Assembly (NCBI RefSeq): GCF_017303215.1
Contig: NZ_JAEMWU010000001.1
Span: 124,001 to 188,000 of the forward strand
Reading direction: 5' to 3'
Source: Microbacterium esteraromaticum
GTDB taxonomy: Bacteria; Actinomycetota; Actinomycetes; Actinomycetales; Microbacteriaceae
DNA length: 64,000 bases
Part shown: positions 42,250-57,934 of the stretch, in pieces
How positions within the stretch are numbered: position 1 is the first letter of the stretch
Layout: every line of letters begins with the position of its first letter
Translations under genes and position numbers: made by a program
Notes under the pieces: generated by a model
Databases searched by the model: none
Told to the model about the DNA's origin: nothing
Seen by the model: the letters and a program-made list of their open reading frames with translations, nothing else

Positions 42250-42322
42250 CTTCGCGCGGATTTGTGCGCTTGGCGCGGATGAACCCCCGGATTCTGTCCG
42301 CGCGAAGAGGACTTCTCCGCGA
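42250..42322. repeat. Intergenic palindrome, family G
   Basis: Arms cttcgcgcggat (42250-42261), cttggcgcggat (42269-42280), gtccgcgcgaag (42296-42307) and a degenerate fourth near 42311-42322. The first and third contain a perfect 11-base inverted match. It follows hemA directly. Confidence 0.65.
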
Positions 42323-42368
42323 CAGGCGTACGAGCGCCAGAGGCCACACCCCTGACAAAGGGAAGCAC

Positions 42369-42684: not shown

Positions 42685-44261
42685 ATGACTCGGAAGCTGC
42701 ATGAAGTGTTCAACGAGGCTGGGCTTCCGGAGATCACCTACGTCCCTCCGGCCGAAGCTCAGCAGTTGAAAGGCTCCCTCGCTACACCCGGCAAGCACGT
42801 CACTCTCGTCGGACCATCGGGCAGTGGAAAGTCGACAGTGGCGAACCGGGTCCTCGAGAGCCTGAGCTTGAGTTCCAACAAGGTTCATGGCTTCAGCGGT
42901 AGGAGCTACTCACAGGTCACAAGCATTCTTGAGATTCTCGGGGCAGAGTTCGACGTTGCGCCGAGTCTGGAAGAGATTGAGCCCTGGCTCAAGGCATTCG
43001 AGATCATCATGATCGATGATGTGCACCATCTCAACCTGGAAGCCCGGACAGAACTCGCTTCCCATCTGAAGCTGTGGCACGAGAAGGGCATCCGATTCTT
43101 CATGATCGGAATCGCCAAAACCAGTGAGGCAATCCTGGGACAAGACCCGGAGCTCGCTATTCGCAACGATGCCTGGAACATTGGTAAGCAAAGTCCGGAG
43201 TTTCTCGCGCGCATTGTGGCGAAGGGCGAGGATGCACTGAACGTTCGTTTCACCGAAACAGGTCGCGATTTAGCGATTGAAGCCGCTCAGGGCTCTCCGT
43301 CGATCCTGCAGGCGATCTGCAGAATAACGTGCGTCCAAGCAGACGTACTTGAAAAGGCCGAAAGCCAGGCGACCGAGATCGACGTGGACCTGCCACTCAT
43401 CCGGACGGCGGTTGTTCGCCAATATGACGGCCGCTACTTGAACAAAATTGTCAGCCTCGCCCGGGGCCGCCGCCAAGCTCGCTCTGTCCACGATACGTAC
43501 TTCAGAATAATTGAACAGGTCGCGGTTAGCGGCAAGGACCAAATCTCAAGAGATGAGCTTTATCACAAGATCGTTGGCAGCAAGGACGCTCGCCAAAAGT
43601 CTCAAGTGCGCAACTCTTTCTACCGCGCACTCACGAACCTGCCCACAGTTATCGAGGAAAATGGACTATCCGACATCCTGATCTACGAGAATGGCACGCT
43701 TACGATCGACGATCCGGTCTTCCGCTTCTACCTCGATCACCTCGATTTCTCTCGGGTTCGCTCGCAAGTCAATGTTCGACGCCTCGGTTATGAATTCGAC
43801 GTCGCTGTTTCGTTCGCTGGGCCTGACAGGACAACTGTGGTGCGGCTCGTGGAGGCGTTGAAAGAGCGGGGCCTCGAAGTCTTCTATGACTTTGACCAGC
43901 AAGCGCTGCTCTGGGGCAAAGACCTCCGCGAAGAGCTCGGCAAGGTGTACGGACAAGAGGCGCAGTTCATGATTGTCTGTCTCTCCAAAGACTACCCGGA
44001 GCGCGATTGGACAAACTTCGAACTCGAGATCGGGCGACAGGCGGCATCGAAGCGCACGGAAGACTACCTGTTGCCATTGGTCGTCGGTGACTCCAGGCCC
44101 GCGATCGTCGGTTTGCCAGGCACTGTTGGTCACCTTTCACTCGCCGACCGCTCAATCGAAGACGTAGCTGACCTCGTGCTAGACAAGTTCCAAGCGCTAC
44201 CCGCGCTCGTGCCCGAGTCGGAAGACAAGGGTGCTGAGCTGGCCAAGGCAGGGGCAAGCGA
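42483..44261 (+). mobile_element. Accessory insertion carrying an ATPase-TIR gene
   Basis: A segment of visibly lower GC (hand counts of two 60-base lines inside give 45% and 50%; one in the following gene gives 68%) lies between two copies of the HhH-GPD 5' end. No transposase, integrase, terminal inverted repeat or clean target duplication is visible, so the mechanism is unknown; homologous exchange or loss of a larger element are possible. Confidence 0.55.
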
Positions 44262-44265
44262 ATGA
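42685..44265 (+). CDS. P-loop ATPase with C-terminal TIR domain
   Basis: 526 residues, likely a single-protein immune effector. Residues 5-270 are an AAA/STAND-like ATPase of the TniB/ORC-type look: Walker A GPSGSGKST (43-51), Walker B EIIMIDDVHH (106-115), sensor-like FFMIGIAKTSEA, and GSPSILQAICRI. Residues about 280-355 look like a winged helix ending TIDDPVFRFYLDHL. A TIR domain runs from about 369 (YEFDVAVSFAGPDR) to 503; the putative NADase Glu is Glu446 in DWTNFELEIG. Codons such as ATA, AGA and TTA, rare in neighbours, and low GC indicate recent acquisition. ATG 42685 has GGAG upstream. Its stop overlaps the HhH-GPD start (ATGA). By analogy TIR-ATPases destroy NAD+ when the sensor is triggered by phage; not shown here. 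Confidence 0.85.
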   Translation: MTRKLHEVFNEAGLPEITYVPPAEAQQLKGSLATPGKHVTLVGPSGSGKSTVANRVLESLSLSSNKVHGFSGRSYSQVTSILEILGAEFDVAPSLEEIEPWLKAFEIIMIDDVHHLNLEARTELASHLKLWHEKGIRFFMIGIAKTSEAILGQDPELAIRNDAWNIGKQSPEFLARIVAKGEDALNVRFTETGRDLAIEAAQGSPSILQAICRITCVQADVLEKAESQATEIDVDLPLIRTAVVRQYDGRYLNKIVSLARGRRQARSVHDTYFRIIEQVAVSGKDQISRDELYHKIVGSKDARQKSQVRNSFYRALTNLPTVIEENGLSDILIYENGTLTIDDPVFRFYLDHLDFSRVRSQVNVRRLGYEFDVAVSFAGPDRTTVVRLVEALKERGLEVFYDFDQQALLWGKDLREELGKVYGQEAQFMIVCLSKDYPERDWTNFELEIGRQAASKRTEDYLLPLVVGDSRPAIVGLPGTVGHLSLADRSIEDVADLVLDKFQALPALVPESEDKGAELAKAGASE

Positions 44266-44837
44266 GCATTCACATCACCGGAGACACCGCCGCCGACACC
44301 CTGCTCACCGAGAACCCGCTCGCTCTGCTGGTGGGAATGCTGCTCGACCAGCAGGTTCCCATGGAGACCGCGTTCGCTGGCCCGCTCAAGATCGAACAGC
44401 GCACCGGAGCGACGGATGCCGAAGCGATCGCCGGCATGGACCCGGATGCCTTCCTCGAAGCGTTCAAGCAGACGCCGGCCGTGCATCGCTTTCCCGGTTC
44501 GATGGCGGCACGGGTGCAGACGCTCTGCCAGACTCTCGTCGATGAATGGGGCGGCGACGCTGCCGCGCTGTGGACTCAGGGGAACCCCGACGGCGCCGAA
44601 GTTCTCAAGCGCCTGAAGAAGCTGCCGGGCTTCGGTGAGCAGAAGGCCAAGATCTTCCTTGCCCTGCTCGGCAAGCAGTACGGTTTCACCGGCGCGGGCT
44701 GGCGGGAGGCATCCGCCCCCTACGGCGAAGAGGGCGCCTACCGCAGCGTCGCCGACATCGTCTCGCCCGAGTCGCTCACCCAGGTGCGCGAGCACAAGAA
44801 GGCGATGAAGGCCGCCGCGAAGGCGGCGAAGCCATGA
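44262..44837 (+). CDS. HhH-GPD-type base-excision repair family protein
   Basis: 191 residues of the uncharacterised actinobacterial HhH-GPD family. The helix-hairpin-helix is LKKLPGFGEQKAKIFLALLG (about 123-142); catalytic residues cannot be assigned with confidence. The N-terminus PLALLVGMLLDQQVPMETAF is typical. The start codon overlaps the TIR gene stop. The first codons (MSIHI) differ most from the broken copy at 42369 (MALHL), so the start region may have come with the inserted segment. Followed by an ATGA overlap with a DUF1801 gene. Confidence 0.87.
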   Translation: MSIHITGDTAADTLLTENPLALLVGMLLDQQVPMETAFAGPLKIEQRTGATDAEAIAGMDPDAFLEAFKQTPAVHRFPGSMAARVQTLCQTLVDEWGGDAAALWTQGNPDGAEVLKRLKKLPGFGEQKAKIFLALLGKQYGFTGAGWREASAPYGEEGAYRSVADIVSPESLTQVREHKKAMKAAAKAAKP

Positions 44838-45256
44838 AGCCGACCGGGGGTGACGTCGCGGAGTTCATCGCGGAGGTGAGCCCTGCGAAACGGCAACGGG
44901 ATGCTGAGACCCTGACGGCCATGCTGCAGGAGGTCTCGGGCCGCGAGCCCGTGCTGTGGGGAACGATCGTCGGGTTCGGCAGCTGCCACTATCGGTACCC
45001 GACCGGCAACGAGGGCAATATGCCGTTGCTGGCGTTCGCTCCGCGCAAGGCCGCCTCGACCATTTACCTGGAGTCGACGGCCGCGCACGCCGACGCGCTG
45101 GGCCGACTCGGCCCGCACACGACCGGCGTCGGCTGCCTCTACATCAAGGACCTCGAAACAGTGGATCTCGACGTCCTCCGCGGCATCCTCACCGCGTCGT
45201 TGCAGTGGTCCGAGAACGGCGGCGGCGAGTACGCGACGATCACTGTCACCGGCTGA
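44834..45256 (+). CDS. DUF1801 protein
   Basis: 140-residue small soluble protein with the DUF1801 pattern: FIAEVSPAKRQRDAETLTAML, EPVLWGTIVGFGSCHYRYPTG and MPLLAFAPRKAASTIYLE. Members share the YdhG/DUF1801 fold; the biochemical role is unknown. Coupled to the HhH-GPD gene by a four-base overlap. Confidence 0.85.
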   Translation: MKPTGGDVAEFIAEVSPAKRQRDAETLTAMLQEVSGREPVLWGTIVGFGSCHYRYPTGNEGNMPLLAFAPRKAASTIYLESTAAHADALGRLGPHTTGVGCLYIKDLETVDLDVLRGILTASLQWSENGGGEYATITVTG

Positions 45257-45303
45257 CGCCATCCACCGCCGCGTGCGGGATGCCGTCGCGCCCAACGCCC
45301 GGG

Positions 45304-46596
45304 TCACATCACGATGATGTCGGCCTCCGGCGCTCGATACTCCGCGACGGTCGGCATATCCGGCGCCGCAGCAACGCCGGTGCGGAACGCGCGCACGCTG
45401 CGCAGTACGGGATCGATGCCGTCGGTCTCGATCCGCAGTCTCCGCACCGCACGTTCGGTGAACGAGTGCATCCGCCGCACTCCGATGGTCCCGCCCTCGC
45501 ACAGCACGTCACTATCCGCCAGCACCCGATGCGCCGCTACGCGCTGTCCGGCATCCAACGCCTCAGCCAGTTCGAGATGGTCGATCTCGACCTGGTCGGC
45601 GAACTCGGCGTCCCAGACACCGGCATCCCGTCGGATGATCCGCGCCTCCAGCGGCGCACCGAATCGCCTCGCCAGCTCGGTGGAGTACTCCTCAAGAACT
45701 GCCAGGTCGGTGCGGTCGATCAGGCCGTCGCGGTTCGGCGGTACGTTCAACAGCAGGTTCGCACCCAGCCCGACCGACCGGTAGTGGATTCCGAGCAGGT
45801 GCTCGACGGTCTTCGGTTCGTCGAACGGATGCCAGAACCAGCCGTGCCGCAGCGAGACATCGCACTCAGGCGGCAGGTAACGCGGCGCGAATCCGAGCAC
45901 CGCATCGGTGTGCACGTCGTTCGGTGTCCAGTCCGCGACGTAGAGAACGGGATCCGAGGCCAGGCCGTCCTCATTGCCGACCCACCGGATGTCGGGGTCG
46001 CCCATGTTGAAGATCACCGCACCGGGCTGGTGCTCTCGCACGATCCCGGTGATGCGGGCCCAGTCGTACTCGCGGCCGGCCGATCCCGCGCCGTCGAACC
46101 ACACCTCGACCAGGTCGCCGTAGCCCGTGCAGAGCTCGGTGAGTTGCGCGCAGTAGAAGTCGTCGTAGGCAGCGGCATCGGGGTAGCACGTGGCGTTGCG
46201 ATCCCAGGGCGACAGGTACACCCCGAACCCCATTTCGGCTTCCGCGCACGCGTCGGCGAGCTCACGCACCACGTCGCCGTCGCCGCCTCGCCACGGGCTG
46301 GATGCCACGGAGTACTCGGTGGTGGCCGTCGGCCACAGGCAGAACCCGTCGTGGTGCTTCGCGGTCAACACGACATGCTGCGCGCCGGCGATCCTCGCGG
46401 CGGCGACCCACTGGCGGGCATCCAGAGCGGTCGGATCGAAAGACGCCGCCGGCAACGTCCCGTCGCTCCACTCCACCCCGGCGAAGGTGTTCAGCCCGAA
46501 GTGGAAGAACACCGCGACGCCGGCCTGCTGCCAGCGCAACTGCGCCGGGCTCGGATGCAACCCCACCGTGTCTTCGGAGATCGGCATGTCGGCCAT
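45304..46596 (-). CDS. Alpha-L-fucosidase (GH29-like)
   Basis: 430 residues, no signal peptide, so cytoplasmic. GH29 marks: RWQQAGVAVFFHFGLNTFAG, HVVLTAKHHDGFCLWP, GFGVYLSPWDRN, and the probable nucleophile Asp in LVEVWFDGAG. A C-terminal beta domain follows from about 330. It should release fucose from imported oligosaccharides. It is 29 bases after the cytidylyltransferase gene on the same strand and back to back with two mannosidase-type genes. ATG 46587 is an alternative start. Confidence 0.87.
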   Translation of the reverse strand: MADMPISEDTVGLHPSPAQLRWQQAGVAVFFHFGLNTFAGVEWSDGTLPAASFDPTALDARQWVAAARIAGAQHVVLTAKHHDGFCLWPTATTEYSVASSPWRGGDGDVVRELADACAEAEMGFGVYLSPWDRNATCYPDAAAYDDFYCAQLTELCTGYGDLVEVWFDGAGSAGREYDWARITGIVREHQPGAVIFNMGDPDIRWVGNEDGLASDPVLYVADWTPNDVHTDAVLGFAPRYLPPECDVSLRHGWFWHPFDEPKTVEHLLGIHYRSVGLGANLLLNVPPNRDGLIDRTDLAVLEEYSTELARRFGAPLEARIIRRDAGVWDAEFADQVEIDHLELAEALDAGQRVAAHRVLADSDVLCEGGTIGVRRMHSFTERAVRRLRIETDGIDPVLRSVRAFRTGVAAAPDMPTVAEYRAPEADIIVM

Positions 46597-46625
46597 GGTC
46601 AGGGCGTGCCGCTCGTGCTCGGTTG

Positions 46626-47102
46626 TCAGGCCCGCGAAAGGCGCTCGGCTTCTTTCGCGGCGACGATCTTGCGCAGCCCCGAGCTCGAGAAGCGGTGATT
46701 GCGGCTGTTGAAGTACAGCTCGATGCCGGCCTGCTCGCAGTACTCGCGACCGGTGAAGTCGCGGTCGATGTACTCATCGCCGACGATGCGCACGTCGAGC
46801 TTGAACGAGCGCAGGATGTCTTCGAGGTCCTGCTCGGTCGAATAGGGCACGATCTCATCGACGTACTCGCAGCCACGCAGCTGGATGTAACGCTCGACGA
46901 CCGTCTGGGTCGGTGCGTTCTTCTCGGGACGATCGAGCGTCGGGTCCATCTGCAGACCGCAGATCAGATAATCGCACTGCCGCTTCGCCTCGGCGAGCAT
47001 CATGATGTGCCCGGCGTGCAGCAGGTCGAAGGTAGAGAAGGTGATCCCCACCCGCGGTCCCGGGTTGTAGTCCTGGTGCTTGTTGGGTGCTGCGTCCGTC
47101 AT
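46626..47102 (-). CDS. Cytidylyltransferase (TagD-like)
   Basis: 158-residue nucleotidyltransferase of the small CTP:glycerol-3-phosphate type. The HxGH motif is in GITFSTFDLLHAGHIMMLAE, and the second motif is in NHRFSSSGLRK (ISTT/RTxGxSTT equivalent, here diverged). It may make CDP-glycerol or another CDP-alcohol for cell-wall polymers. AAAGGA precedes ATG 47102, and TAGACT at 47136-47131 is a candidate -10. Its link to the glycosidases is unclear. Confidence 0.8.
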   Translation of the reverse strand: MTDAAPNKHQDYNPGPRVGITFSTFDLLHAGHIMMLAEAKRQCDYLICGLQMDPTLDRPEKNAPTQTVVERYIQLRGCEYVDEIVPYSTEQDLEDILRSFKLDVRIVGDEYIDRDFTGREYCEQAGIELYFNSRNHRFSSSGLRKIVAAKEAERLSRA

Positions 47103-47194
47103 CGTGGTCCTTTCAGGTCGTGCCGAGATGAGTCTATGCGGCCCGGACCGTAGCATTGCTGATGGATGCCTCCCAACGCCGAAAGGGTCACGCG

Positions 47195-48496
47195 ATGTCA
47201 GCGACTCCCCCACCAGACGCGCCGCTGCGCTTCGGCGCCAACTACACCCCCTCGAAGGAGTGGATGCACTCCTGGCTCTCGCTCGATCTCGATGCCGTGC
47301 GTCGAGACTTCGCGGGCCTTGCCGAGCTCGGCCTCGATCATGTGCGTGTCTTTCCGCTGTGGCCGGTGCTGCAGCCCAACCGCACCCTGATCCGCGATGA
47401 GGCCGTCGCCGACGTGCGTGCCGTGGTCGACGTCGCCGCGGAGTTCGGGCTCGACGCCAGCGTCGACGTCATCCAGGGGCACCTGTCGAGCTTCGACTTC
47501 GTGCCGTCCTGGCTGTTCACCTGGCACGACAAGAACATGTTCACCCACCCTGACGCGCTCAGCGGACAGGTGGCGCTGGTCGAGCGCCTGGGCGCGGCAA
47601 TCGGGGACGCGGGTAACTTCCTCGGGTTCACCCTCGGCAACGAGACCAACCAGTTCTCGGCGCGCAATCACCCGCATCCGTGGCCCGTGACCGAGGCCGA
47701 CGCCGCCAACTGGATCACCACGCTGCTCGATGCCGCCGAGCGTTCCGCACCCGGCCAGCCGCACGTGCACAGCGAGTACGACGCCGCCTGGTACATGGAC
47801 GGCCACGGCTTCACCCCCGCGCTCGCGTCGCGGTTGGGTGCCATGACGACCGTGCACTCGTGGATCTTCAACGGCACCGCTCAGCGCTACGGCGGCCGGT
47901 CGGTAGCATCCGATCGCCACGCCGAGTACATGATCGAGCTCTCACGCGCCTTCCAGACCGACGCGCGGCGACCGATCTGGTTGCAGGAGGTCGGTGCGCC
48001 GTCGAACTGCCTGAACACCGATGAAATGCCCGACTTTCTCGAAGCGACCGTGCGCAGCGCGGCGCGCACCGAGAACCTGTGGGGCGTCACCTGGTGGTGC
48101 TCACACGATGTCAGCCGCGCATTGGCCGACTACCCCGAGCTGGAATACTCGCTGGGGCTGATCGACAACGATGGCGCCGCCAAGCCCATCGGGCGCCGCT
48201 TCGCCGAGATCATCCCCGAACTGCGTGAGCGTCAGAGCACCCCGGCGCGGTCGCTGGGCATCGTCGTCGAGGTGGACGAGGGCGACGTGCCTGTCAGCCG
48301 CGCGGCGCTCAGCCCCGGCGGTGCCGTGTTCGAGGCGTGGGTGCAGGCCTGCGCATCGGGTGCGGATGCGACGTTCGTCACCTCGACCGATGCGGCGGAT
48401 GCCGCCCTGCTCGCCCGCCGTGGCATCACCGAGCTGCTGGTCCCGGACTCCGCCGACGGCGTGGGCACCTACTCGTCGAACAACACCGTCGTCTGA
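47195..48496 (+). CDS. GH-A clan glycoside hydrolase (GH5-like, mannosidase candidate)
   Basis: 433 residues, TIM barrel. [20 protein letters not shown] at the start; acid/base Glu in [13 protein letters not shown] (the N-E pair of clan GH-A) and nucleophile Glu in [10 protein letters not shown]. No signal peptide. Next to an alpha-mannosidase it is probably an intracellular beta-mannosidase or related exo-enzyme. ATG 47195 has AAAGGG; TAGCAT at 47151-47156 could instead drive a leaderless start at 47162. Confidence 0.82.
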
Positions 48497-48533
48497 GTAG
48501 GCTCGACCTCACACCCGCGACAAGGAGGACGCG

Positions 48534-51500
48534 ATGCACGAAGAGACCTCGCTCACGGTCGGGCGGGTGACGCGGGTGCTCGCCGAGCGCGTGCGCCCGG
48601 CGATCCACTCGGCTCGTGTCCCGCTGCAGATCGCTTCTCATTCCCTGCCCGGTGAGCCAATCGCTCCGGCGGAGGGCCTCGCACTGGACTACGAGCCGTT
48701 CGCCGCGGGTGGCATGTGGGGGCCGGCGTGGGGCACGACGTGGTTCCGGGTGCGCGGCGAGGTCCCAGCGCGGTGGGCGGGCAAGAAGGTCGAAGCGCTG
48801 ATCGACCTCGGATTCGACGTGAACATGACCGGGTTCCAGTGCGAGGCACTCGCCTACCGCCCAGACGCAACGCCGATCAAGAGCCTCAACCCGCGCAACC
48901 AGTGGTTGCCGGTGGATGCTGAGGCGGGCGGGTCGGTCGAGTTCTACCTGGAGGGTGCCTCGAACCCGGTGCTGCTCGACTACCACCCGTTCCTGCCGAC
49001 GCAGGAGGGCGACGTCCTCACCTCGTCACCCGAGCCGCTGTACCGCGTGCGGCACATGGACCTCGCCGTGTTCGAGCCCGAGGTGTTCGAGCTCTCGCTC
49101 GACCTCGAGGTGCTGCTGGAGTTGCAAGGTGAGTTGCCCGAGACGTCTCCGCGGCGCATGCGCGTGTTGCAGGCGCTTGACGACGCGCTCGATGCGTTGG
49201 ATCTGCAGCGCATCGTCGAGACAGCGTCGGATGCCCGTGCGCACCTGGCCGGGGTGTTGGCATCTCCTGCTGAGGCGAGTGCGCACCGCATCGCCGCCAT
49301 CGGGCACGCGCATATCGATTCGGCCTGGCTGTGGCCAGTGCGCGAGACGATCCGGAAGGTTGCCCGCACCACCTCATCGATGACGGCGCTGCTCGAGGAT
49401 GATCCGGATTTCCGGTACGGGATGTCGAGCGCACAGCAGTACGCCTGGATCAAGCAGCACCGCCCCGAGGTGTGGGAGCGGGTGCGTGCCGCCGTCGCCG
49501 AGGGCCGGTTTGTGCCGCTAGGCGGCATGTGGGTCGAGTCCGACACGGTGATGCCGAGCGGTGAGTCGCTGGTGCGCCAGTTCGCGTACGGCCAGCGTTT
49601 CTTCGAGCGCGAGTTCGGCATCCGCTCGAAGGGGGTCTGGTTGCCCGACAGCTTCGGGTACTCCCCCGCACTGCCGCAGCTGATGCGTCGGGCCGGGTTC
49701 GAGTGGTTCTTCACGCAGAAGATCTCGTGGAACCAGCGCAACGTCTTTCCGCATCACTCGTTCTTGTGGGAGGGCATCGACGGGTCGCGCATGTTCACGC
49801 ATTTCCCGCCGATGGACACGTACAACGCGCAGCTGAGCGGCTCCGAGATCGCCAAGGCGTCCCGCCAGTTCAAAGAGAACCGGGTCGCGTCGATGTCGAT
49901 CGCCCCGGTCGGTTGGGGTGACGGCGGCGGCGGAACGACCCGCGAGATGACGGGGAAGGCCGCCCGTCTGGCCGATCTGGAGGGCTCGGCGAAGGTCGAA
50001 TGGAAGCACCCGGACGCGTTCTTCACCGAGGCGCGCGCCGAGCTGACCGACCCGGCCGTCTGGGTCGGCGAGCTCTACCTCGAACTGCACCGCGGCACGC
50101 TCACCAGCCAGCACGCCACCAAGGCGCTGCACCGCTGGGCCGAGCAGGCGCTGATCGAGGCGGAGCTGTGGGCGGCGACCGCCGCCGTGCAGCGCGGCAC
50201 CGCGTACGACTACGACGCGTTCGACCGCCTGTGGCAGGTCGTGCTGCTGCACGAGTTCCATGACATCCTGCCCGGCACGTCGATCGCGTGGGTGCACCGC
50301 GAGGCCGTCGAGGCGCTGGGAGATGTGATCTCGGATGCCGAAGACCTGTCTGCTGCGGCGCTCGGCGCCCTGGCCGGCGAGGGTGATCGGCTGCTGCGAT
50401 TCATCCCGTCGTCGGTGCGAGGGGCATCCGATGACCGCCCGCTCGGTGCGACCGCCGTCTCTGAGACGGACTCCGGTCATGCGCCCGCCACGCTGACCGA
50501 ACAGGCCGACGGCTTCGTGCTCGCCAACGATCTCGTCACGGTCACCGTCTCGCACGACGGTCTGATCGTCTCGGCGATTGACAAGGCCACGGGCCGCGAG
50601 ACGATCCCCGCAGGGTCGCCTGCGAACCTGTTCCAGCTGCACCAGGACTTCCCGAACATGTGGGACGCATGGGACATCGACCGGTACTACCGCAACCGCG
50701 TCGAGGACCTCACCGCGGTCTCGTCGATCTCAGCATCCGTCATCGACGGTGCGGCGACGGTTCTGATCAGGCACGAGTTCTCGCAGTCCTCGATCGAGCA
50801 GACCATCCTTCTGCGGCCTGGCTCACGCACCGTTCTGCTGCTCAACGACATCGACTGGAACGAGACCGAGAAGCTGCTCAAACTCGCCTTCCCCCTCGAC
50901 CTGTTCGCCCGTGAGACTCTCGCCGAGACGCAGTTCGGCTTTCAGCGCCGCGTCACCCATGTGAACACCAGCTGGGAGGCGGCGAAATTCGAGACCTCGA
51001 TGCACCGGTTCGTACTCGCACAGGAGGACGACGGGTTCGGCGCCGCGCTCGTGAACGACTCGATCTACGGCTACGACACCTCGCGCGACGTCGATGGTGA
51101 CGATGTCACCACGACGATCCGGTTGTCGCTGCTGCGGGCGCCGCGCTTTCCCGATCCCGAGACCGACCACGGCGCGCACCAGATCGAGGTCGGGTTCGTG
51201 ATCGGAGCGGATGCCGCCATCGCGACCGCCGAGGGCATCCGCCTCAACGCAATGCCGACACTGATGCGCGGGGCGCACGAGGTCACCCCCCTCGTGGCGG
51301 TATCGGGCGAGGGCATCATCGTGTCGTCGGTGAAGCTGGCCGACGACCGCTCGGGCGACGTCATCGTGCGGGTGTACGAGTCGCTCGGGCGCCGCGCGCG
51401 GGGTGAGCTGACGGTCGGGTTCGCGCACTCGGGCATCCGCGAGGTCTCGCTGATCGAGGACGACCTCGACGACGCGCGTGTCGGCGGCGAGCTCGCGCTG

Positions 51501-51539
51501 CGTCCGTTCGAGGTGCGCACGCTGCGCATCGTGCGCTGA
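48534..51539 (+). CDS. Alpha-mannosidase (GH38)
   Basis: 1001 residues. The catalytic domain has the zinc motif AIGHAHIDSAWLWPVRET, nucleophile Asp in WLPDSFGYSPALPQLMRRAG and a later zinc His in HEFHDILPGTSIAWVHRE. An N-terminal domain of about 250 residues and C-terminal beta-sandwich domains complete the standard GH38 layout. It hydrolyses alpha-mannosides, probably from imported N-glycan fragments given the neighbouring fucosidase. AAGGAGG before the ATG; a TAGGCT hexamer at the end of the previous gene may be its own -10. Confidence 0.95.
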   Translation: MHEETSLTVGRVTRVLAERVRPAIHSARVPLQIASHSLPGEPIAPAEGLALDYEPFAAGGMWGPAWGTTWFRVRGEVPARWAGKKVEALIDLGFDVNMTGFQCEALAYRPDATPIKSLNPRNQWLPVDAEAGGSVEFYLEGASNPVLLDYHPFLPTQEGDVLTSSPEPLYRVRHMDLAVFEPEVFELSLDLEVLLELQGELPETSPRRMRVLQALDDALDALDLQRIVETASDARAHLAGVLASPAEASAHRIAAIGHAHIDSAWLWPVRETIRKVARTTSSMTALLEDDPDFRYGMSSAQQYAWIKQHRPEVWERVRAAVAEGRFVPLGGMWVESDTVMPSGESLVRQFAYGQRFFEREFGIRSKGVWLPDSFGYSPALPQLMRRAGFEWFFTQKISWNQRNVFPHHSFLWEGIDGSRMFTHFPPMDTYNAQLSGSEIAKASRQFKENRVASMSIAPVGWGDGGGGTTREMTGKAARLADLEGSAKVEWKHPDAFFTEARAELTDPAVWVGELYLELHRGTLTSQHATKALHRWAEQALIEAELWAATAAVQRGTAYDYDAFDRLWQVVLLHEFHDILPGTSIAWVHREAVEALGDVISDAEDLSAAALGALAGEGDRLLRFIPSSVRGASDDRPLGATAVSETDSGHAPATLTEQADGFVLANDLVTVTVSHDGLIVSAIDKATGRETIPAGSPANLFQLHQDFPNMWDAWDIDRYYRNRVEDLTAVSSISASVIDGAATVLIRHEFSQSSIEQTILLRPGSRTVLLLNDIDWNETEKLLKLAFPLDLFARETLAETQFGFQRRVTHVNTSWEAAKFETSMHRFVLAQEDDGFGAALVNDSIYGYDTSRDVDGDDVTTTIRLSLLRAPRFPDPETDHGAHQIEVGFVIGADAAIATAEGIRLNAMPTLMRGAHEVTPLVAVSGEGIIVSSVKLADDRSGDVIVRVYESLGRRARGELTVGFAHSGIREVSLIEDDLDDARVGGELALRPFEVRTLRIVR

Positions 51540-51571
51540 CGACGGCGCGCTTCGCGACCCCGCCTGTCACC

Positions 51572-51644
51572 GAGAACAGGCCGTTCACCGAGAACAGGCC
51601 GATTTCCGAGAAATCGTCCTGTTGCCACGAACGAGCCTGTTCTC
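51572..51644. repeat. Intergenic palindrome, family B, copy 1
   Basis: Arms gagaacagg (51572-51580), gagaacaggccgattt (51590-51605), aaatcgtcctgttg (51611-51624) and acgagcctgttctc (51631-51644): two forward, two inverted, nested. The last 14 bases recur exactly at 52856-52869. Confidence 0.8.
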
Positions 51645-51683
51645 AGACACTGGCGGATGCCGGCGACTGCGCGTCGATGCCAG

Positions 51684-51692
51684 TTATCCACA
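51684..51692 (+). other. Single TTATCCACA (DnaA-box-like) motif
   Basis: One perfect consensus DnaA box in an otherwise unannotated gap between repeat B1 and the small gene. No cluster of boxes or AT-rich unwinding region is present, so this is not an origin. Confidence 0.3.
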
Positions 51693-51820
51693 GATCTGCC
51701 GCACCCACCCCTCGACTTGCCCTTGACGAAACTTCGAATGTTCTTTCGCGCCATCCCCTGCACAAGAGCACGATTCTATGAGCGATCCTGAAATGGACCA
51801 CTCGCGCAAAGGAGCCCATC

Positions 51821-51931
51821 GTGAACCGCAACGAGACCAACGAACTCTTCGACACCGATGCACACCTGTTCATCGGTCGCCCGCTCTGGTTCGACAAGCA
51901 CCCCTCGCAGGCCGAGGGCGAAGACTACTGA
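51821..51931 (+). CDS. 36-residue small protein
   Basis: GTG start with a perfect AAAGGAG 6 nt upstream; product begins VNRNETNELFDTDAHL, has a central FIGRPLWFDKH and ends SQAEGEDY. Third codon positions are almost all G or C (about 31 of 36), the local coding signature. A 19-bp terminator follows 10 bases after the stop. It is hydrophilic and acidic with an aromatic centre, with no signal peptide or membrane span. I do not recognise it; a regulatory peptide, a RiPP-like precursor or a small subunit are all possible. Confidence 0.65.
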   Translation: MNRNETNELFDTDAHLFIGRPLWFDKHPSQAEGEDY

Positions 51932-51941
51932 GCCTGCACTG

Positions 51942-51988
51942 AGCGCCGCAGACCCCTCCCGAATAGCCGGGAGGGGTCTGCGGCGCTT
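51942..51988. terminator. Terminator of the small-protein gene
   Basis: Perfect 19-bp stem (51942-51960 with 51969-51987) and an 8-base loop, followed by TTGA. Only weakly U-rich but very stable. Confidence 0.85.
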
Positions 51989-52088
51989 GAGGACAGGATG
52001 GATGCCCGGCGCAGGACGGATGCCGGGAATTCACCCTGTTGTCGCGTGATCTCCTATTCCGGGCAACGGGACGGCGACGTCGAATCTG

Positions 52089-52739
52089 TCAGGCGTCACT
52101 CACGGGCACCGGACGCCGGGTGCGAGCGCGGATGCCGAGCACGATGGCCAGCACTCCGAGGAGGGCTGTGCTGATCACCGGCAGGTAGACGACGGTGAAT
52201 CCGCCGAAGGCGGGCGCCGCCGTGAATGTCGCGGCGTAGAACGCGAAGGTGGCCCCCACCGCCCACAGCGGCGCCCAACTCCAAGGCGACGGCACCGCGC
52301 GGGCCCGGCCGATCAACGTCGCGGCGAGCAGCGTCAACACGCCGACGACCAGGAAGTACGGCAGGAAGATCGCTGACCAGGAGTCCTCCTGCGCGTACGG
52401 GTTCTGCGGGTCGTCGAGGACGAGGGTCGACAGCCACGTGGCGGCGACCGGCGCCGCGACGAAGACCTGCAGGATCACGACCAGCGTGCTGATCGGCCTG
52501 CGACCGGTGATGCTTCCCGCGCGGCCGAGTCCGATCACGAGGATCAGCACGCCGATCGCCCACAGCCAGTCCTTGACGTAATACGTCCAGTCCGGCATCG
52601 AGCCGATGATCCCGGCACGGAACAGCAGCATCCGCAGCACGACGAGCAGCGCCGACATCAGCAGCAGCGCGCCACCGATCACCCAGGTGCGCTGCCTCGC
52701 TCGGACATCGCAGTCACCGGCATCCGACGTCGCGTCCAT
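52089..52739 (-). CDS. Integral membrane protein
   Basis: 216 residues, about six membrane helices (around 18-40, 55-75, 85-105, 122-143, 150-172, 178-200) and a short charged C-terminus. An extra-membrane loop WLSTLVLDDPQNPYAQEDSW lies between helices 3 and 4. No family recognised. The ATG at 52739 is 6 nt after TAGAGT. It lies between the two copies of repeat family B. Confidence 0.72.
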   Translation of the reverse strand: MDATSDAGDCDVRARQRTWVIGGALLLMSALLVVLRMLLFRAGIIGSMPDWTYYVKDWLWAIGVLILVIGLGRAGSITGRRPISTLVVILQVFVAAPVAATWLSTLVLDDPQNPYAQEDSWSAIFLPYFLVVGVLTLLAATLIGRARAVPSPWSWAPLWAVGATFAFYAATFTAAPAFGGFTVVYLPVISTALLGVLAIVLGIRARTRRPVPVSDA

Positions 52740-52745
52740 CCGCCC

Positions 52746-52751
52746 ACTCTA
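52746..52751 (-). promoter_or_regulatory. -10 element of the membrane protein gene (leaderless)
   Basis: TAGAGT, six bases, ATG 52739 on the minus strand. Confidence 0.5.
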
Positions 52752-52796
52752 GCCAGCGGTCCCCCGCCACCCCGGCGCGCGGCGCGCAGCACGCAG

Positions 52797-52869
52797 GAGG
52801 ACAGGACATTCGCTGAGAACAGGACGGATTACCGGCATCCGTACTGTCCTCGGCAACGAGCCTGTTCTC
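52797..52869. repeat. Intergenic palindrome, family B, copy 2
   Basis: Arms gaggacagg (52797-52805), gagaacaggacggat (52815-52829), atccgtactgtcctc (52837-52851) and acgagcctgttctc (52856-52869). Same nested four-arm layout as copy 1, in the same orientation. Confidence 0.8.
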
Positions 52870-52890
52870 GACAGCCAACCACGCAGCATG

Positions 52891-52935
52891 AAAAGCCGAA
52901 GCCCCGATTCATACGGCATGAATCGGGGCTTCGGC
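52891..52935 (-). terminator. Terminator of glyS
   Basis: Perfect 18-bp stem (52895-52912 with 52918-52935), 5-base loop, followed on the minus strand by TTTT. It is just past the glyS stop. Confidence 0.92.
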
Positions 52936-52953
52936 GCGAGTGAAACGAGCCTG

Positions 52954-54339
52954 TCAGGCTCCGCGCAGGCGCTCGGCCAGGTACTGCTCGAGGGCGTCGA
53001 GCGGCACGCGCTCCTGGCCCATGGTGTCGCGGTCGCGCACGGTGACGGCGCGGTCGTCGAGCGAATCGAAGTCGACGGTGACGCAGAACGGCGTGCCGAC
53101 CTCGTCTTGGCGGCGGTAGCGGCGGCCGATGGCGCCGGCGTCGTCGAAGTCGATGTTCCAGGTGCCGCGCAGGGTGTCGGCGACCTCACGCGCCAGCGGC
53201 GACAGGCGCTCGTTGCGCGACAGTGGCAGCACGGCGACCTTGATGGGCGCCAGGCGCGGGTCGAGCTTGAGCACGGTGCGCGTGTCGGTGCCGCCCTTGG
53301 CGTTGGGCACCTCTTCTTCTTCGTACGCGTCGACCAGGAAGGCCATCATCGAGCGGGTCAGACCGAACGAGGGCTCGATCACGTAGGGCGTGTACCGCTC
53401 GCCCGAGGCCTGGTCGAAGTAGGTCAGGCTCTGGCCCGATGCCTCGGAGTGGCTGGAGAGGTCGTAGTCGGTGCGGTTGGCGACACCCATCAGCTCGCCC
53501 CACTCCTTGCCGGGGAAGCCGAAGCGGTACTCGAAGTCGATCGTGCCCGCCGAGTAGTGCGCGCGCTCCTCTTCGGGAACGTCGAACTGACGCATGTTCT
53601 CGGGGTCGACCCCCAAGTCGATGAACCAGTCCCAGCAGGCCTTGACCCAGTGCTCGAACCACTCCTGCGCCTCGGCCGGAGGAACGAAGTACTCGATCTC
53701 CATCTGCTCGAACTCGCGGGTACGGAAGATGAAGTTTCCGGGCGTGATCTCGTTGCGGAACGCCTTGCCGACCTGGCCGATGCCGAACGGCGGCTTCTTG
53801 CGCGAGGCGGTGAGCACGTTCGAGAAGTTCACGAAGATGCCCTGCGCGGTCTCGGGGCGCATGAAGTGCAGGCCAGACTCGTCGTCGACGACACCCAGGT
53901 ACGTCTTGATCAGGCCGGAGAACGACTTAGGCTCGGTCCAACGACCACGGGTCCCGCAATCGGGGCAGACGATGTCGGCCATGCCGTTCTCGGGCTGACG
54001 CCCCTTCTTCGCCTCGAACGCCTCGATGAGGTGGTCCTCACGGTGACGCTTGTGGCACTGCAGGCACTCGACCAGCGGGTCGGTGAAGGTCGCGACGTGG
54101 CCGGAGGCCTCCCACACGCGCTTGGGCAGGATGATCGACGAGTCGAGGCCGACCATGTCGCCACGGCCGCGCACGAAGGTCTGCCACCACTGCCGGCGGA
54201 TGTTCTCTTTCAGCTCGGTACCGAGGGGACCGTAGTCCCATGCCGAGCGGGAACCGCCGTAGATCTCACCCGCTTGGAACACGAACCCGCGGTGGCGGGC
54301 GAGGGCGATGACCTTGTCAAGACGGGACTGTTCGGCCAC
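52954..54339 (-). CDS. glyS: Glycine--tRNA ligase (alpha2 type)
   Basis: 461-residue class-II synthetase. Motif 2 is [21 protein letters not shown] in segments ([20 protein letters not shown]), motif 3 [15 protein letters not shown] zinc-type insertion carries CLQCHKRH and [10 protein letters not shown]. The C-terminal anticodon-binding domain begins near [16 protein letters not shown] 54339 has GGAG upstream; a longer in-frame ATG start was not chosen. It is a single-gene unit with its own terminator. Confidence 0.95.
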
Positions 54340-54462
54340 GGTGGCTCCAATGGTCGGATGCTGCGGGGAATTCGCCCGAGAAGCGGGCATCCTCATCCTA
54401 CCGGCGAGCCCCTCGCGCGGTGGCCCGCCCTCGGATGCCCTCCGAGGGTCGGAGGCCAGCGC

Positions 54463-55152
54463 CTACTCGCTGAAGAGGTAGCCCCGGCCGGTCTCGAACC
54501 CGGCCACGCGCAGTCCGCGCCCGAGCAACTGCTCGACCTCGCCGCGCAGGCGCAACCGCCACTCGTGCGCCGCGGCGGGGTCGGACTCCCGCATCGCCTC
54601 GACGTCGGCGGGGATCTCAAGCGTGGCGACGACCGCATCGGATGCCGGAGGCCTCGCGATATCGGCGAGCGCCCACTCGACGTCGAACCGGTCGCTCTCG
54701 TCACCGGCATCGCCGCCGCCGAAGATGCCGTACTGGTTGACGGCGTAGTCGGTGACGCGGGCGCCGAGCACGGTGAGGAAGAAGTGGGCGTTGCGCGCCA
54801 CGAGCGGATCGAAGGTCCACGTGATGCGCCCGACCTCGCGCGAGAACGCCCACTGACGCTGGTGCTCCTTGAGCTCACGCCCCCAGCCGCGGCCACGGTA
54901 ATCGGGAAGCAGCGCGGTGATGTGCGAGTGCATCGTGCGCCGGCCCGGCACACCGAAGAACGCCACCGAGGCGCCGACCATGCGCTCATCACCGTCGTCG
55001 CCGTCGAACAGGCCGACCACATAGTTTCCGGACTGCTGCAGAGCACGCAGTGTGCCCGCGTCGATCACCCGCTCGGGCCCGCGGATCGAATCCAGCAGCC
55101 CCTGGGCTTCGATGATCAGTTCAACAGTGTCGAGATCTCGGATGGTGCGCAC
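54463..55152 (-). CDS. GNAT-family acetyltransferase-like protein
   Basis: 229 residues. The acetyl-CoA loop is ALLPDYRGRGWGRELKEHQR (Q/RxxGxG/A type), followed by the pattern TWTFDPLVARNAHFFLTVLG, which is typical of the group of predicted GNAT proteins related to COG3375. Substrate unknown. GTG at 55152 has CAGACT six bases upstream. It is divergent from the HTH gene, and the shared gap holds that gene's promoter and operators. Confidence 0.8.
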   Translation of the reverse strand: MRTIRDLDTVELIIEAQGLLDSIRGPERVIDAGTLRALQQSGNYVVGLFDGDDGDERMVGASVAFFGVPGRRTMHSHITALLPDYRGRGWGRELKEHQRQWAFSREVGRITWTFDPLVARNAHFFLTVLGARVTDYAVNQYGIFGGGDAGDESDRFDVEWALADIARPPASDAVVATLEIPADVEAMRESDPAAAHEWRLRLRGEVEQLLGRGLRVAGFETGRGYLFSE

Positions 55153-55158
55153 GCCCCC

Positions 55159-55164
55159 AGTCTG
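55159..55164 (-). promoter_or_regulatory. -10-like element of the GNAT gene
   Basis: CAGACT does not overlap the coding region: on the minus strand it is followed by gggggc and GTG 55152. Confidence 0.4.
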
Positions 55165-55200
55165 CCCCTCGATGCCCCGATGCCGAAACCGGCGTGGTGA

Positions 55201-55246
55201 GCAACCCAGGTTGACACCGCAGTCTGTAGCAACCTAGGTTGACACC
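55201..55246 (+). promoter_or_regulatory. Leaderless promoter with two operator repeats before the HTH gene
   Basis: An 18-base sequence, gcaaccyaggttgacacc, occurs at 55201-55218 and 55229-55246 with one mismatch; each holds the dyad CAACC(C/T)AGGTTG. TTGACA (55211-55216) and TAGGTT (55235-55240) give a -35/-10 pair with 18-base spacing, and the ATG follows 6 nt later. The HTH product is the likely ligand. Confidence 0.75.
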
Positions 55247-55492
55247 ATGGAATCCACGCAGCTCGCAGCCGTAGCCGCAGACACCGCTGATCCGAAGCGG
55301 GGCCTTCGTGCCGTCGCGTCTCTGCGCGCACTGGCCGACACCCTGGAGCTGCGCCAGGTCGAAGCGGCACTGCGGTCGGGCATGACCTGGCAGGAGATCG
55401 CCGACGCCCTCGGCGTCACCCGCCAGGCCGCACACAAGAAGCACGCCAAGCGGGTCGACCCCACAATCCCCACCCCCAGGAGAAACGCATGA
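55247..55492 (+). CDS. Small helix-turn-helix protein
   Basis: 81 residues. An N-terminal helical region (ALADTLELRQVEAALRSG) leads to a clear helix-turn-helix, MTWQEIADALGVTRQAAHKK, and a basic tail. This small type is found upstream of Clp-N domain genes in actinobacteria. It is probably an autoregulator binding the repeats at its own promoter. The start is leaderless. It overlaps the next gene (ATGA). Confidence 0.85.
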   Translation: MESTQLAAVAADTADPKRGLRAVASLRALADTLELRQVEAALRSGMTWQEIADALGVTRQAAHKKHAKRVDPTIPTPRRNA

Positions 55493-56475
55493 ACAAGTTC
55501 GTCCGCGTCGCGCAGACAAGCCAATCGCTCTCACTCTCCGCCATGGAGGAGGCCTCACGAACCGGGCACCGTGAAGCCGACCTCGAACACCTCCTGCTCG
55601 CGCTGGTCATCACCGATCAGAACGCGGGGCAGGCACTGCGCGAGCTGGGCATCGACATCGAGACCGCACGCCGTGCCGTTCAAGAGCAGCATGAGATGCA
55701 GTTGGCCACCCTCGGCATCGAGACGCAACTCCCCGCTGCGGGGCCCATCGTGTTTCACGAGACCGATGGGTACACGTGGAGCAAGCGGGCCACCGACCTG
55801 CTCGCCCGTTCCAGCGGCAAAGGACGATCCGGGGATGCCGCAGCTGTTCTACGGGAACTCGTCGCAGAGCCAAGCGGCTTGATCAGTGACATCCTGCAGA
55901 GGCTCGGGACGACCCCCGCAGAAGTGACCTCGCGTCTCGACCGCATCGATGCGGCCCGTCGCACGCCCTCACCCCGTCCAAAGAAGAAGGGCCGCGCAAC
56001 GATGGCATCCGAGACCTTCGTGCCTGCCCCTGTCGATGAGGTGTGGCGCTTCGTGTCCGACCCGGCGCGCGTGCCCTCCTGGGAGCCGAGCATCGGCGAG
56101 GTGGACACTACTGATCACGAGGCGCGAGTCGACTCCGTCTGGGAGGGGCGCGCCCCGGAACACCGCCCCGACGGGCGCCCCACGAAGGTCCGGCCGGACT
56201 TCAGACGACGAACCATCGAACTCGTCACCGCTCAGCGGCCCGAGCGCGCCGTCTGGCGCTTCGCCTATCCCGATGCGGCGAACGCGAGCCCGGTCACCAC
56301 GACTTTCGACCTCTCCGCCACGACCGGCGGAACGCAGGTCACCATCACCCTCTCCTGGTCTCGCAGGCCGGGCTGGCGGCGCGTCGTCGGTATCGCGCTG
56401 CGCCCCGTACAGAAGTTCGTCATGTGGATAATGCTCTTCCAGATCGGCGGAGCCGTCAGCCGCGAGTTCCGTTGA
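55489..56475 (+). CDS. Clp N-terminal domain fused to SRPBCC domain
   Basis: 328 residues. Residues 1-150 form a Clp N-terminal repeat domain (FVRVAQTSQSLSLSAMEEAS, READLEHLLLALV, AGQALRELGID, and a second repeat from YTWSKRATDLLARS) without any AAA ATPase. A basic Pro/Lys linker (PSPRPKKKGRA) leads to a START/SRPBCC lipid- or ligand-binding domain from about 168 (ASETFVPAPVDEVWRFVSDP). Such a fusion could recognise a ligand and present it or itself to ClpC-type machinery, but this is inference. Coupled to the HTH gene by ATGA. Confidence 0.85.
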   Translation: MNKFVRVAQTSQSLSLSAMEEASRTGHREADLEHLLLALVITDQNAGQALRELGIDIETARRAVQEQHEMQLATLGIETQLPAAGPIVFHETDGYTWSKRATDLLARSSGKGRSGDAAAVLRELVAEPSGLISDILQRLGTTPAEVTSRLDRIDAARRTPSPRPKKKGRATMASETFVPAPVDEVWRFVSDPARVPSWEPSIGEVDTTDHEARVDSVWEGRAPEHRPDGRPTKVRPDFRRRTIELVTAQRPERAVWRFAYPDAANASPVTTTFDLSATTGGTQVTITLSWSRRPGWRRVVGIALRPVQKFVMWIMLFQIGGAVSREFR

Positions 56476-56501
56476 CGGCAGACTCGCACGCCGTTGCACC
56501 C

Positions 56502-56575
56502 AACTCCGGAGAAACCTCGCTGTGCAGGGCGTCAGGTGCCAGATCAGTTGCCCGCGCCCACGAATCTCCGGAGTT
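56502..56575. repeat. Intergenic palindrome, family C, copy 1
   Basis: aactccggagaa (56502-56513) and atctccggagtt (56564-56575), inverted with one mismatch; each arm contains the 8-base palindrome CTCCGGAG. The inner 50 bases differ from copy 2. It lies between convergent genes. Confidence 0.8.
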
Positions 56576-56614
56576 GTGAACCGTCGAAGGCGCCGAGGGG
56601 CCGCCGCCGCACTC

Positions 56615-57934
56615 TCACACGGCGCGCAACGCGTCGCGATCGAGGTCGGCCACCGAAGTCAGCCCGGCAAGGCCCAGGGTGATGTCGAGTTCGGCGAGCA
56701 CGTTGCGGATCACCTCTCGCACGCCCCACTCCCCGGCGATGCCGAGCCCGTAGGCGTACGGGCGTCCGAGCGCGACCAGGTCGGCACCGAGCGCGAGGGC
56801 GATCACGGCGTCCGCACCGCCCCTCACCCCGGAGTCGAAGATCACCGGCATCCGCCCGCCGATGCGCTCGCTGATCTCGGGCAGCACGTCGAGCGTAGGC
56901 ACCGAGCGGTCGATCTGCCGACCGCCGTGGTTCGAGATCCAGACGCCGTCGGCTCCGGCATCCGCCGCCCTCTCGGCATCGTCCGGATGCACGATGCCCT
57001 TCAAGATGATCGGCAGCGACGTCCATTCACGCGCTTTGGCGAGGTCGTCCCACGTGAGTGTCGGGGTCGAGAACACGTCGAGGAATGTCTCGACGGCAGC
57101 GCGCGGCAGCGGCGAGCGCAGGTTGTCGCGCAAGCTGCGGCTGCCGGTGAGAGCGGCGCCCCTGCGCGCGATCGACAGCCCGGCGGCGATCGTCTTGGGC
57201 GTCACCCTCACGGCCGGACTGTCACCGGAGGAAGCGGATGCCCGTTGCTGCACCAACTTCTGGAACACCGGGTCGGAGGTGTACTGGGCGATACCCATCC
57301 CCCTCGTGAACGGCAGGTAGGCCAGATCGAGGTCGCGTGTGCGCCACCCGAGCAGGTGCGTGTCGAGCGTGACGACGATCGCCTCGCATCCCGACGCTTC
57401 GGCGCGGGCGAGCAGTGACGCGTTGAGCTCATCGGAGGCCGACCAGTACAGCTGGAACAGTCGCGGAGCGCCCGGTGCGGACTGCGCGATCCGCTCGAGC
57501 GGGAACGACGCCTGGTTCGAGACGGTGTACGGCACACCCGCGGATGCTGCCGCCCGCGCCACGGCGAGATCGGCCTCGGGGTGCGCGAGTTCCATGACCC
57601 CCAAAGGCGCAAGCAGCAGGGGTGTGGGTCGGGTGCGCCCGAGGAACTCCACCGACAGGTCACGACTGCTCACATCGCGCAACGGACGCGGCCACACCTG
57701 CCAGCGGCCGAAGGCGGCGCGGTTCGCGGCCACGGTCGCCTCCGCGCCGGCGCCCCCGGCCACGTACGCATACGCTTCGGGCGTGAGCGCCGCCTGTGCG
57801 GCGGACTGGAGCGCGGTCGCATCGATCGGCACGGCCGGTCGTTCACCGCTGATGCCCGCACGGTAGATATCGGACTGCGTGCGGCGTGAGATGCCCCGCG
57901 CCGCCGCCGGATCGTTCGGAGCCACGTTGCTCAT
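56615..57934 (-). CDS. FMN-dependent alpha-hydroxy-acid oxidase (lactate 2-monooxygenase-like)
   Basis: 439-residue TIM-barrel flavoenzyme. FMN-binding and catalytic marks: LLLAPLGVMELAHPEADLAV, VVTLDTHLLGWRTRDLDLAY, ILKGIVHPDDAERA, the catalytic His in ISNHGGRQIDRSVPTLDVLP, and FDSGVRGGADAVIALALGAD. The long loop between barrel strands 4 and 5 (about residues 210-270) matches lactate 2-monooxygenases rather than short lactate oxidases. It would convert L-lactate to acetate and CO2 or to pyruvate. ATG 57934 with TAGGGT 6 nt upstream. Confidence 0.88.
   Translation of the reverse strand: MSNVAPNDPAAARGISRRTQSDIYRAGISGERPAVPIDATALQSAAQAALTPEAYAYVAGGAGAEATVAANRAAFGRWQVWPRPLRDVSSRDLSVEFLGRTRPTPLLLAPLGVMELAHPEADLAVARAAASAGVPYTVSNQASFPLERIAQSAPGAPRLFQLYWSASDELNASLLARAEASGCEAIVVTLDTHLLGWRTRDLDLAYLPFTRGMGIAQYTSDPVFQKLVQQRASASSGDSPAVRVTPKTIAAGLSIARRGAALTGSRSLRDNLRSPLPRAAVETFLDVFSTPTLTWDDLAKAREWTSLPIILKGIVHPDDAERAADAGADGVWISNHGGRQIDRSVPTLDVLPEISERIGGRMPVIFDSGVRGGADAVIALALGADLVALGRPYAYGLGIAGEWGVREVIRNVLAELDITLGLAGLTSVADLDRDALRAV

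Follow-up and report, generated by a model that had tools for sequence, protein, structure and literature searches.

In mycobacteria, ClpC1 has been studied as an antibiotic target, and its relative ClpC2 is a self-induced defence against one ClpC1 ligand (PMC10030653; 2026 proteome paper). In ClpC2 (Rv2667 and its M. smegmatis counterpart) an HTH-like domain and a ClpC-type N domain form one polypeptide. The protein acts on paired GTCAAC/GTTGAC operators to repress its own promoter; cyclomarin A lifts this repression and is itself sequestered by ClpC2, a sponge that competes with ClpC1 for the ligand (PMC10030653). The operators have the form CGTCAAC-n5-GTTGACG; two of them lie over the -35 and -10 elements in many species and a leaderless transcript has been suggested (PMC10030653). 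Cyclomarin A brings about a 263-fold rise of clpC2 mRNA (Taylor 2023, PMC10030653). ClpC2 also responds to heat and perhaps to unfolded protein (PMC10030653 and the 2026 proteome paper). Ecumicin and ilamycin, according to the 2026 proteome paper, bind ClpC2 without inducing it. Binding alone would therefore not predict induction.

Taylor 2023 assigns dimerization to ClpC2 residues 4-72 and DNA contact to R185 and R189 of the ClpN part, and reports weaker DNA binding of mutants in both regions (PMC10030653). The word helix-turn-helix is absent from the text of that paper (PMC10030653), but the HTH region in ClpC2 has already been pointed out in the 2026 RelI paper (PMC13284704).

The locus described below is rather likely to be a two-gene version of the mycobacterial ClpC2 circuit, consisting of a repressor and a ClpC decoy with an SRPBCC pocket.

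The two-gene unit and its operators

The window is the whole stretch of DNA that was analysed, 64,000 nucleotides long. The features of the unit in the window are:

55200-55218, + strand: distal operator repeat AGCAACCCAGGTTGACACC, whose right half-site doubles as the -35 element TTGACA (55211-55216)
55228-55246, + strand: proximal operator repeat AGCAACCTAGGTTGACACC, holding the -10 element TAGGTT (55235-55240)
55247-55492, + strand: gene for the 81-aa HTH protein, a probable repressor that shares homology with the N-terminal domain of fused ClpC2-type proteins; its start is probably leaderless
55489-56475, + strand: partner gene, 328 aa, two-repeat ClpC-type N domain plus SRPBCC, no ATPase, overlapping the HTH gene by ATGA
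55489-55968, + strand: ClpN part of the partner, residues 1-160, with F4 and W97 at the positions of the cyclomarin-binding F96 and F172 of ClpC2
55990-56472, + strand: SRPBCC part, residues about 168-328, assigned by Pfam and fold

An earlier note on this DNA had described two 18-base dyad repeats overlying the -35 and -10 of a textbook promoter, with the ATG six bases past the -10. The repeats are real and the coordinates agree (TTGACA, an 18-nt spacer, TAGGTT, six bases, then the ATG of the HTH gene at 55247), but each repeat is 19 bp long and the perfect dyad CAACCTAGGTTG is found only in the second, proximal repeat, the first, distal one reading CAACCCAGGTTG. The two differ by one mismatch and start 28 bp apart. 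To call the promoter textbook is too strong: TAGGTT agrees with TATAAT at 3/6 positions and a generic sigma-70 scan of 55100-56600 called no promoter, being blind to this one because TAGGTT is so far from TATAAT. The case for promoter and operator rests on conservation across loci.

The repeat is rare. With up to 3 mismatches allowed it has 2 matches in the window against 0.01 expected by chance; within the 3,063,803-bp genome CAACCYAGGTTG is confined to two places, both at the operator pair, and the 2 exact genome matches of GCAACNNNNGTTGAC are the operator pair again. When one mismatch is allowed, no clear further GCAACNNNNGTTGAC site emerges genome-wide (33 against 23 for a reversed-pattern control). 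A search of 41000-57000 against Rfam gave 0 matches. The locus is a two-gene unit with operators, probably leaderless, and it looks autoregulated, as had been proposed.

The HTH protein matches Pfam HTH families only below the family cut-offs. Its AlphaFold2 model (mean pLDDT 90) has a helix at residues 16-43 followed by helices at 48-55 and 59-66, with the recognition helix at about residues 59-66. Foldseek with this model found no match at E <= 0.001; VIA-align gave middling Z scores (RecQ C-terminal domain 6.3, a phage repressor 5.4, Fis about 5), with 8ADA and 9SDC absent among the matches listed. The homology consequently rests on sequence profiles. Compared by hhalign with the N domain of fused ClpC2-type proteins, the HTH profile matches with probability 97.6 and E 4e-12 (40% identity, 50 columns); it also matches 8ADA, the ClpC2 N domain, at E 3.4e-5, and its best match among solved structures is the antitoxin RelI (9SDC, E 4e-6). 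A single-sequence search of solved structures places a repeat protein first (8VD6, E 2e-4) and RelI 9SDC second (E 3e-4). By analogy with ClpC2, the protein is a probable DNA-binding repressor.

For the partner, the reading as a Clp-N domain fused to SRPBCC without an ATPase holds: Pfam reports Clp_N at 47.3 bits (cut-off 20.7) and Polyketide_cyc2 (PF10604) at 39.8 bits (cut-off 27.4), and lists no AAA or other ATPase domain. In VIA-align comparisons with the AlphaFold2 model (pLDDT 88), residues 3-160 match complete ClpC N domains at Z 17.4 (5GUI, 4P15, 2Y1Q) and cyclomarin- and rufomycin-bound ClpC1 at Z 17.0-17.1; rmsd for the ClpC N domains is 2.4-3.2 over 131-144 residues. Residues about 168-328 match PYR/PYL-type SRPBCC structures at Z about 16. 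ClpC N domains and SRPBCC folds make up the 50 matches listed, and 8AD9 does not appear there. The domain had been called Clp adaptor-like, but the model shows the N-terminal domain of ClpC itself (Z about 17), on which adaptors, substrates and antibiotics dock; the domain would mimic ClpC rather than being an adaptor fold. Sequence comparison places it closer to ClpC than to ClpC2: E is 4e-8 to B. subtilis ClpC, as against 0.003 and 0.13 to ClpC2 chains, and hhalign with the ClpN part of the fused proteins gives a probability of only 50. The partner is an ATPase-less ClpN protein that carries a probable ligand domain.

Pairing and spread

Within the genus, a relative of the partner protein is present in 43/198 genomes (E <= 1e-10). 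Genus loci were found through the ClpN protein, phylum and named loci through the HTH protein. The HTH gene accompanies its partner in all 30 loci fetched of those 43, with the 4-base overlap in 29. Of these loci, 29 have a readable promoter (L027 is cut by a contig end) and in them, by eye, the two operator sites are kept while the DNA around and between has diverged. In the family, 80/199 genomes have an HTH relative (E 1e-6), and the 29 best-match loci besides our own comprise 15 with HTH and ClpN-SRPBCC and 13 with HTH and ClpN alone, by profile. (One locus, L049, was missed by the first ClpN profile; its 170-aa neighbour was judged ClpN-like by eye and put into the second profile.) In the phylum, 96/296 genomes have an HTH match (E 1e-4), and a ClpN reading frame lies beside the HTH in 29/29 best-match loci. 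The family and phylum pairings cover the best HTH matches only.

A further, named set came from scanning contigs with the HTH alignment; a pattern scan of genome contigs with the whole 328-aa protein had yielded 51 pattern matches, 0 of them confirmed. A recognition-helix pattern had 588 confirmed matches, of which the best 80 make up the named set; this choice biases it to split-type helices. By record titles the set covers 37 named genera, with one record labelled Vibrio left out. ClpN adjoins the HTH in 79 of these best 80. The pairing in 30/30 genus, 29/29 phylum and 79/80 named loci speaks for a two-gene version of ClpC2.

Several records deserve separate mention. In L158 an HTH gene at 2501-2740 has conserved operators and no ClpN neighbour, and is followed instead by an adenylation-domain frame (NRPS-like, by eye). 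Two other Actinomycetota proteins, of 184 and 182 aa (L112 and L113), have a similar HTH and no ClpN match. An HTH/ClpN-SRPBCC pair of actinobacterial type is found in a record titled Vibrio cholerae strain 35D (L143), where the SRPBCC matches lie in two separate ORFs; the record is probably contamination or a mislabelled assembly.

The C-terminal domain is variable. By profile, SRPBCC is present in 44/80 named partners; nine more, of 309-345 aa, have an extra C-terminal region, for which Pfam, run on six of the nine, reports SRPBCC above cut-off in 2, below it in 1 and none in 3; another 25 partners are shorter than 290 aa and have no SRPBCC match. On the HTH tree the SRPBCC label, which also covers long partners without recognized SRPBCC, changes 5 times against a shuffled mean of 31.9, and is clustered. 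The tree has few columns and its fused rows are scattered on very long branches, and for that reason it was used for this clustering and not for the order of fusion and splitting.

In the window, the module is flanked by a GNAT-like gene and an lldD-like gene (by eye), and these neighbours are kept in the same species only (2/30 genus loci, within a flank of at most 1.5 kb). The closest named relatives of the HTH protein include Arthrobacter, Glutamicibacter, Paeniglutamicibacter and Cryobacterium (81-86% identity), with many Microbacterium relatives below them (73-81%). The pair is patchy in its distribution and shifts its chromosomal place. Flanks that are not kept, and other genera that are closer than many Microbacterium, fit an accessory, transferred unit. 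A search of 72,556 plasmid records with the partner protein (E limit 1e-8) and of 50,697 phage records with the HTH protein (E limit 1e-3) found 0 in each case; PADLOC also gave 0 matches.

Elsewhere in the window, a 563-aa ORF at 42574-44265 (+), by eye NTPase-like in its N-terminal part and TIR-like in its C-terminal part, lies in a dip of GC content (0.54-0.63 at about 42500-44500, against about 0.69). It directly precedes a 191-aa ORF (44262-44837) that begins MSIHITGDTAADTLLTE; a similar start, HLTGDTAANTLLTE, is found near the end of a 299-aa ORF (41643-42542). The low-GC stretch looks as if an island had been inserted at the 5' end of the gene for the 191-aa ORF.

Operator spacing and the recognition helix

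Operators were scored as two half-sites, GTCAAC or AGCAAC, with at least 11/12 matches. By this rule 155 sites with a 4-bp spacer were counted, at least one in each of the 80 named split loci, where 5-bp sites are absent; one stray site has a 7-bp spacer. The fused loci, which are the 17 ClpN-bearing ones of 20 phylum regions picked by reading-frame length (L099, L112 and L113 being without ClpN), have 5-bp sites in 16/17 (30 sites) and 4-bp sites in none, L097 having no site. First-order resampled controls (20 rounds) contain a mean of at most 0.2 sites per set for any spacer. The 4-bp operator spacer of split pairs and the 5-bp spacer of fused proteins is a distinction new here.

The placement of the sites is as regular as their form. 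In 76/80 named loci two sites start 27-29 bp apart, which makes for a promoter spacer of 17-19 bp; outside this count are L133, which begins near a contig end, and L138, L145 and L146, in which a further-downstream site was taken as the proximal one. Among these 76 loci, the -35 is TTGACA in 60 and the -10 is TANNNT in 62; in 75 the distance from the 16-bp core to the start codon is 2-5 bp, and in the window it is 3 bp. The right half-site is GTTGAC in 66/76 distal and 50/76 proximal sites, as would be expected if the distal half-site also serves as the -35.

Recognition helix and half-site vary together. The pool drawn from family, phylum and named loci comprises 138 HTH rows (genus loci left out, repeats between sets possible). 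The helix motif is HKK or HKR in 130 of them, and the operators are GTTG-type for 127 of the 130, with no clear site for the other 3. All 6 rows with HAK have CTGA-type operators, as does a row with HQK (L088); one HRK row is GTTG-type. The six loci with CTGA-type operators and the HTH motif RQSVHAK (L055, L056, L058, L062, L076 and L094) have ClpN partners of about 160-190 aa, and this subgroup is a natural specificity variant. HAK was seen before the counting was done, the test for CTGA was devised only after that, and most of its members are related, so that the covariation counts as support and not as an independent test.

Two further observations bear on the same question. In the fused proteins the conserved HTH stretch is at residues 60-81, and the crystallized chain of 8ADA stops short of the recognition helix, at residue 72. 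Among the proteins of the SRPBCC clade, 4/44 retain R185 and 44/44 have a gap at R189, with the half-sites unchanged; either DNA contact differs there, or the HTH does the work. Taken together, the covariation, the HTH stretch that runs past the end of 8ADA and the loss of R185 and R189 favour the HTH as the likely reader of the operator sequence. The ClpN part may assist DNA contact in fused ClpC2.

A proposed ClpC decoy with a changed pocket

Pocket residues were numbered after ClpC2 by way of the fused protein of L104, which has all six published residues; the second-repeat pocket was aligned by sequence alone. F96 is F in 17/17 fused proteins, in 23/24 split ClpN-only partners (of at most 250 aa) and in 30/44 SRPBCC-fused proteins (L in 11; L045 was left out of the 44 for its start codon). 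At F172 the fused proteins have 10 F, 6 Y and 1 W, and the split ClpN-only partners F in 22/24; in the SRPBCC clade it is W in 44/44. E181 is kept in 14/17 fused and 18/24 split ClpN-only proteins and lost in the SRPBCC clade (A in 15, K in 7, others); K178, E181, R185 and R189 are all mostly or wholly lost there. In the sequence alignment the window protein keeps F4 at F96 and has W97 for F172 and A106 for E181. Ten split partners longer than 250 aa without an SRPBCC profile match have F96 in 1/10, F at F172 in 0/10 and E181 in 4/10; in these alignments, then, partners with an added C-terminal region tend to have lost the antibiotic pocket. Since the pocket is altered, the ligand of the SRPBCC clade probably differs from that of ClpC2; cyclomarin is doubtful as a candidate, and its binding should not be carried over from ClpC2.

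The proposed circuit would then work as follows. The HTH protein, probably a dimer, would bind each operator over the -35 and -10 and hold its own operon low. The ClpN-SRPBCC protein would touch the HTH protein, a contact suggested by the fused relatives, and serve as co-repressor or sensor. A ligand in the partner's pocket, in the likeliest case a ClpC-directed toxin of hydrophobic or cyclic-peptide nature or else hydrophobic protein exposed under stress, would make the partner let go of the repressor or pull it off; the operon would rise and the decoy would soak up the ligand, sparing ClpC. Repression, ligand release and sponge action are modelled on ClpC2. A more specific version, in which we have distinctly less confidence and which is offered tentatively, is a ClpC decoy with two pockets: sensing of a ClpC-directed or hydrophobic natural product would have moved from ClpN to SRPBCC, the pair would be a self-induced, horizontally spread sponge for an antibiotic class new to ClpC, and DNA recognition in the whole ClpC2 family would lie with the HTH recognition helix and not with a ClpN surface.

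It is also conceivable, but unlikely, that the pair is a ligand sensor outside any ClpC defence, with SRPBCC sensing a hydrophobic metabolite, ClpN providing a scaffold for HTH contact, and the unit regulating only itself. The change of F172 to W in 44/44 SRPBCC-fused proteins, the loss of E181, the likeness of the SRPBCC fold to PYR/PYL hormone receptors (Z about 16) and the lack of an exact second operator elsewhere in the genome all suit such a sensor. Against that, regulation of itself only makes most sense, we reason, for a sponge or an enzyme; the aromatic W97 is invariant and the complete ClpN fold is retained; and the ClpN-only split relatives retain the antibiotic pocket (F96 23/24, F172 22/24, E181 18/24). 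The earlier note had suggested a Clp adaptor: on binding its ligand, the ClpN-SRPBCC protein would deliver the HTH repressor, or some other substrate, to ClpC to be degraded. Repressors are commonly removed by regulated proteolysis, and the genome does have a 929-aa open frame with two strong Clp_N repeats, read as ClpC. No support for feeding of substrate or regulator to ClpC was found, however, and by its modelled fold the partner domain imitates ClpC in the contact with adaptors rather than the adaptor. The characterized relative ClpC2 works oppositely, competing with ClpC1 and drawing ligand from it (PMC10030653), and we regard an adaptor as very improbable. A toxin-antitoxin pair, with a RelI-related HTH antitoxin and an SRPBCC-bearing toxin, is hardly credible: RelI 9SDC is among the top structure matches of the HTH (E 3e-4; profile E 4e-6), and the RelI paper ties RelI to the ClpC2 HTH (PMC13284704), but the partner's Pfam domains are Clp_N and Polyketide_cyc2 with no RelE-type toxin, the model for Rv0910-type SRPBCC toxins (NCBIfam NF047960) reaches 12.3 bits where its cut-off is 100, many partners consist of ClpN alone and PADLOC has 0 matches.

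If the locus is a split ClpC2-like circuit, then its presence in many Actinomycetota means that self-induced ClpC decoys may be widespread, and the ligand that the decoy favours could lead to undiscovered ClpC-directed natural products. Two testable points are raised: that the 'dimerization domain' of ClpC2 is a DNA reader, and that the SRPBCC domain took over or widened ligand sensing.

Relation to known systems

A search of open-licence PubMed Central (subscription papers and preprints being outside its scope) turned up no description of the split pair or of a ClpN-SRPBCC fusion, and no experiment with any split pair. A 2023 Cell paper reportedly deals with Clp-targeting BacPROTACs. The earlier note knew of no mechanism of this kind, but ClpC2 is regulated through the same arrangement: a pair of operators that cover the -35 and -10, and a transcript suggested to be leaderless (PMC10030653).

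RelI, the antitoxin of RelS-RelI (NAR 2026, PMC13284704), is likewise a small Actinomycete HTH protein related to the HTH of ClpC2. That system differs in that its partner is a RelE-superfamily RNase toxin and, according to that paper, no upstream inverted repeats were found (PMC13284704). The window partner has the same complete two-repeat fold as the ClpC N-terminal domain (ClpC1 NTD, for example 3WDC and 6CN8); unlike ClpC it has no AAA+ modules, its second-repeat pocket is altered and SRPBCC is fused to it. With SRPBCC/START-like binders (PYR/PYL, Polyketide_cyc2) its C-terminal part shares the fold and a Pfam match, and differs in being fused to ClpN.

The closest comparison remains ClpC2. 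Common to it and to the window pair are an HTH-type domain and an ATPase-less ClpC N domain, and palindromes of GTTGAC half-sites, of which a pair (for ClpC2, in many species) covers the -35 and -10, with the start codon directly after the proximal site. The window pair differs in having two genes instead of one, a 4-bp instead of a 5-bp spacer, an added SRPBCC domain, Trp at the position of Phe172, and neither Glu181 nor either Arg proposed for DNA contact. The kind of circuit, that of ClpC2, is known; the split genes, the SRPBCC fusion and the 4-bp operator are new.
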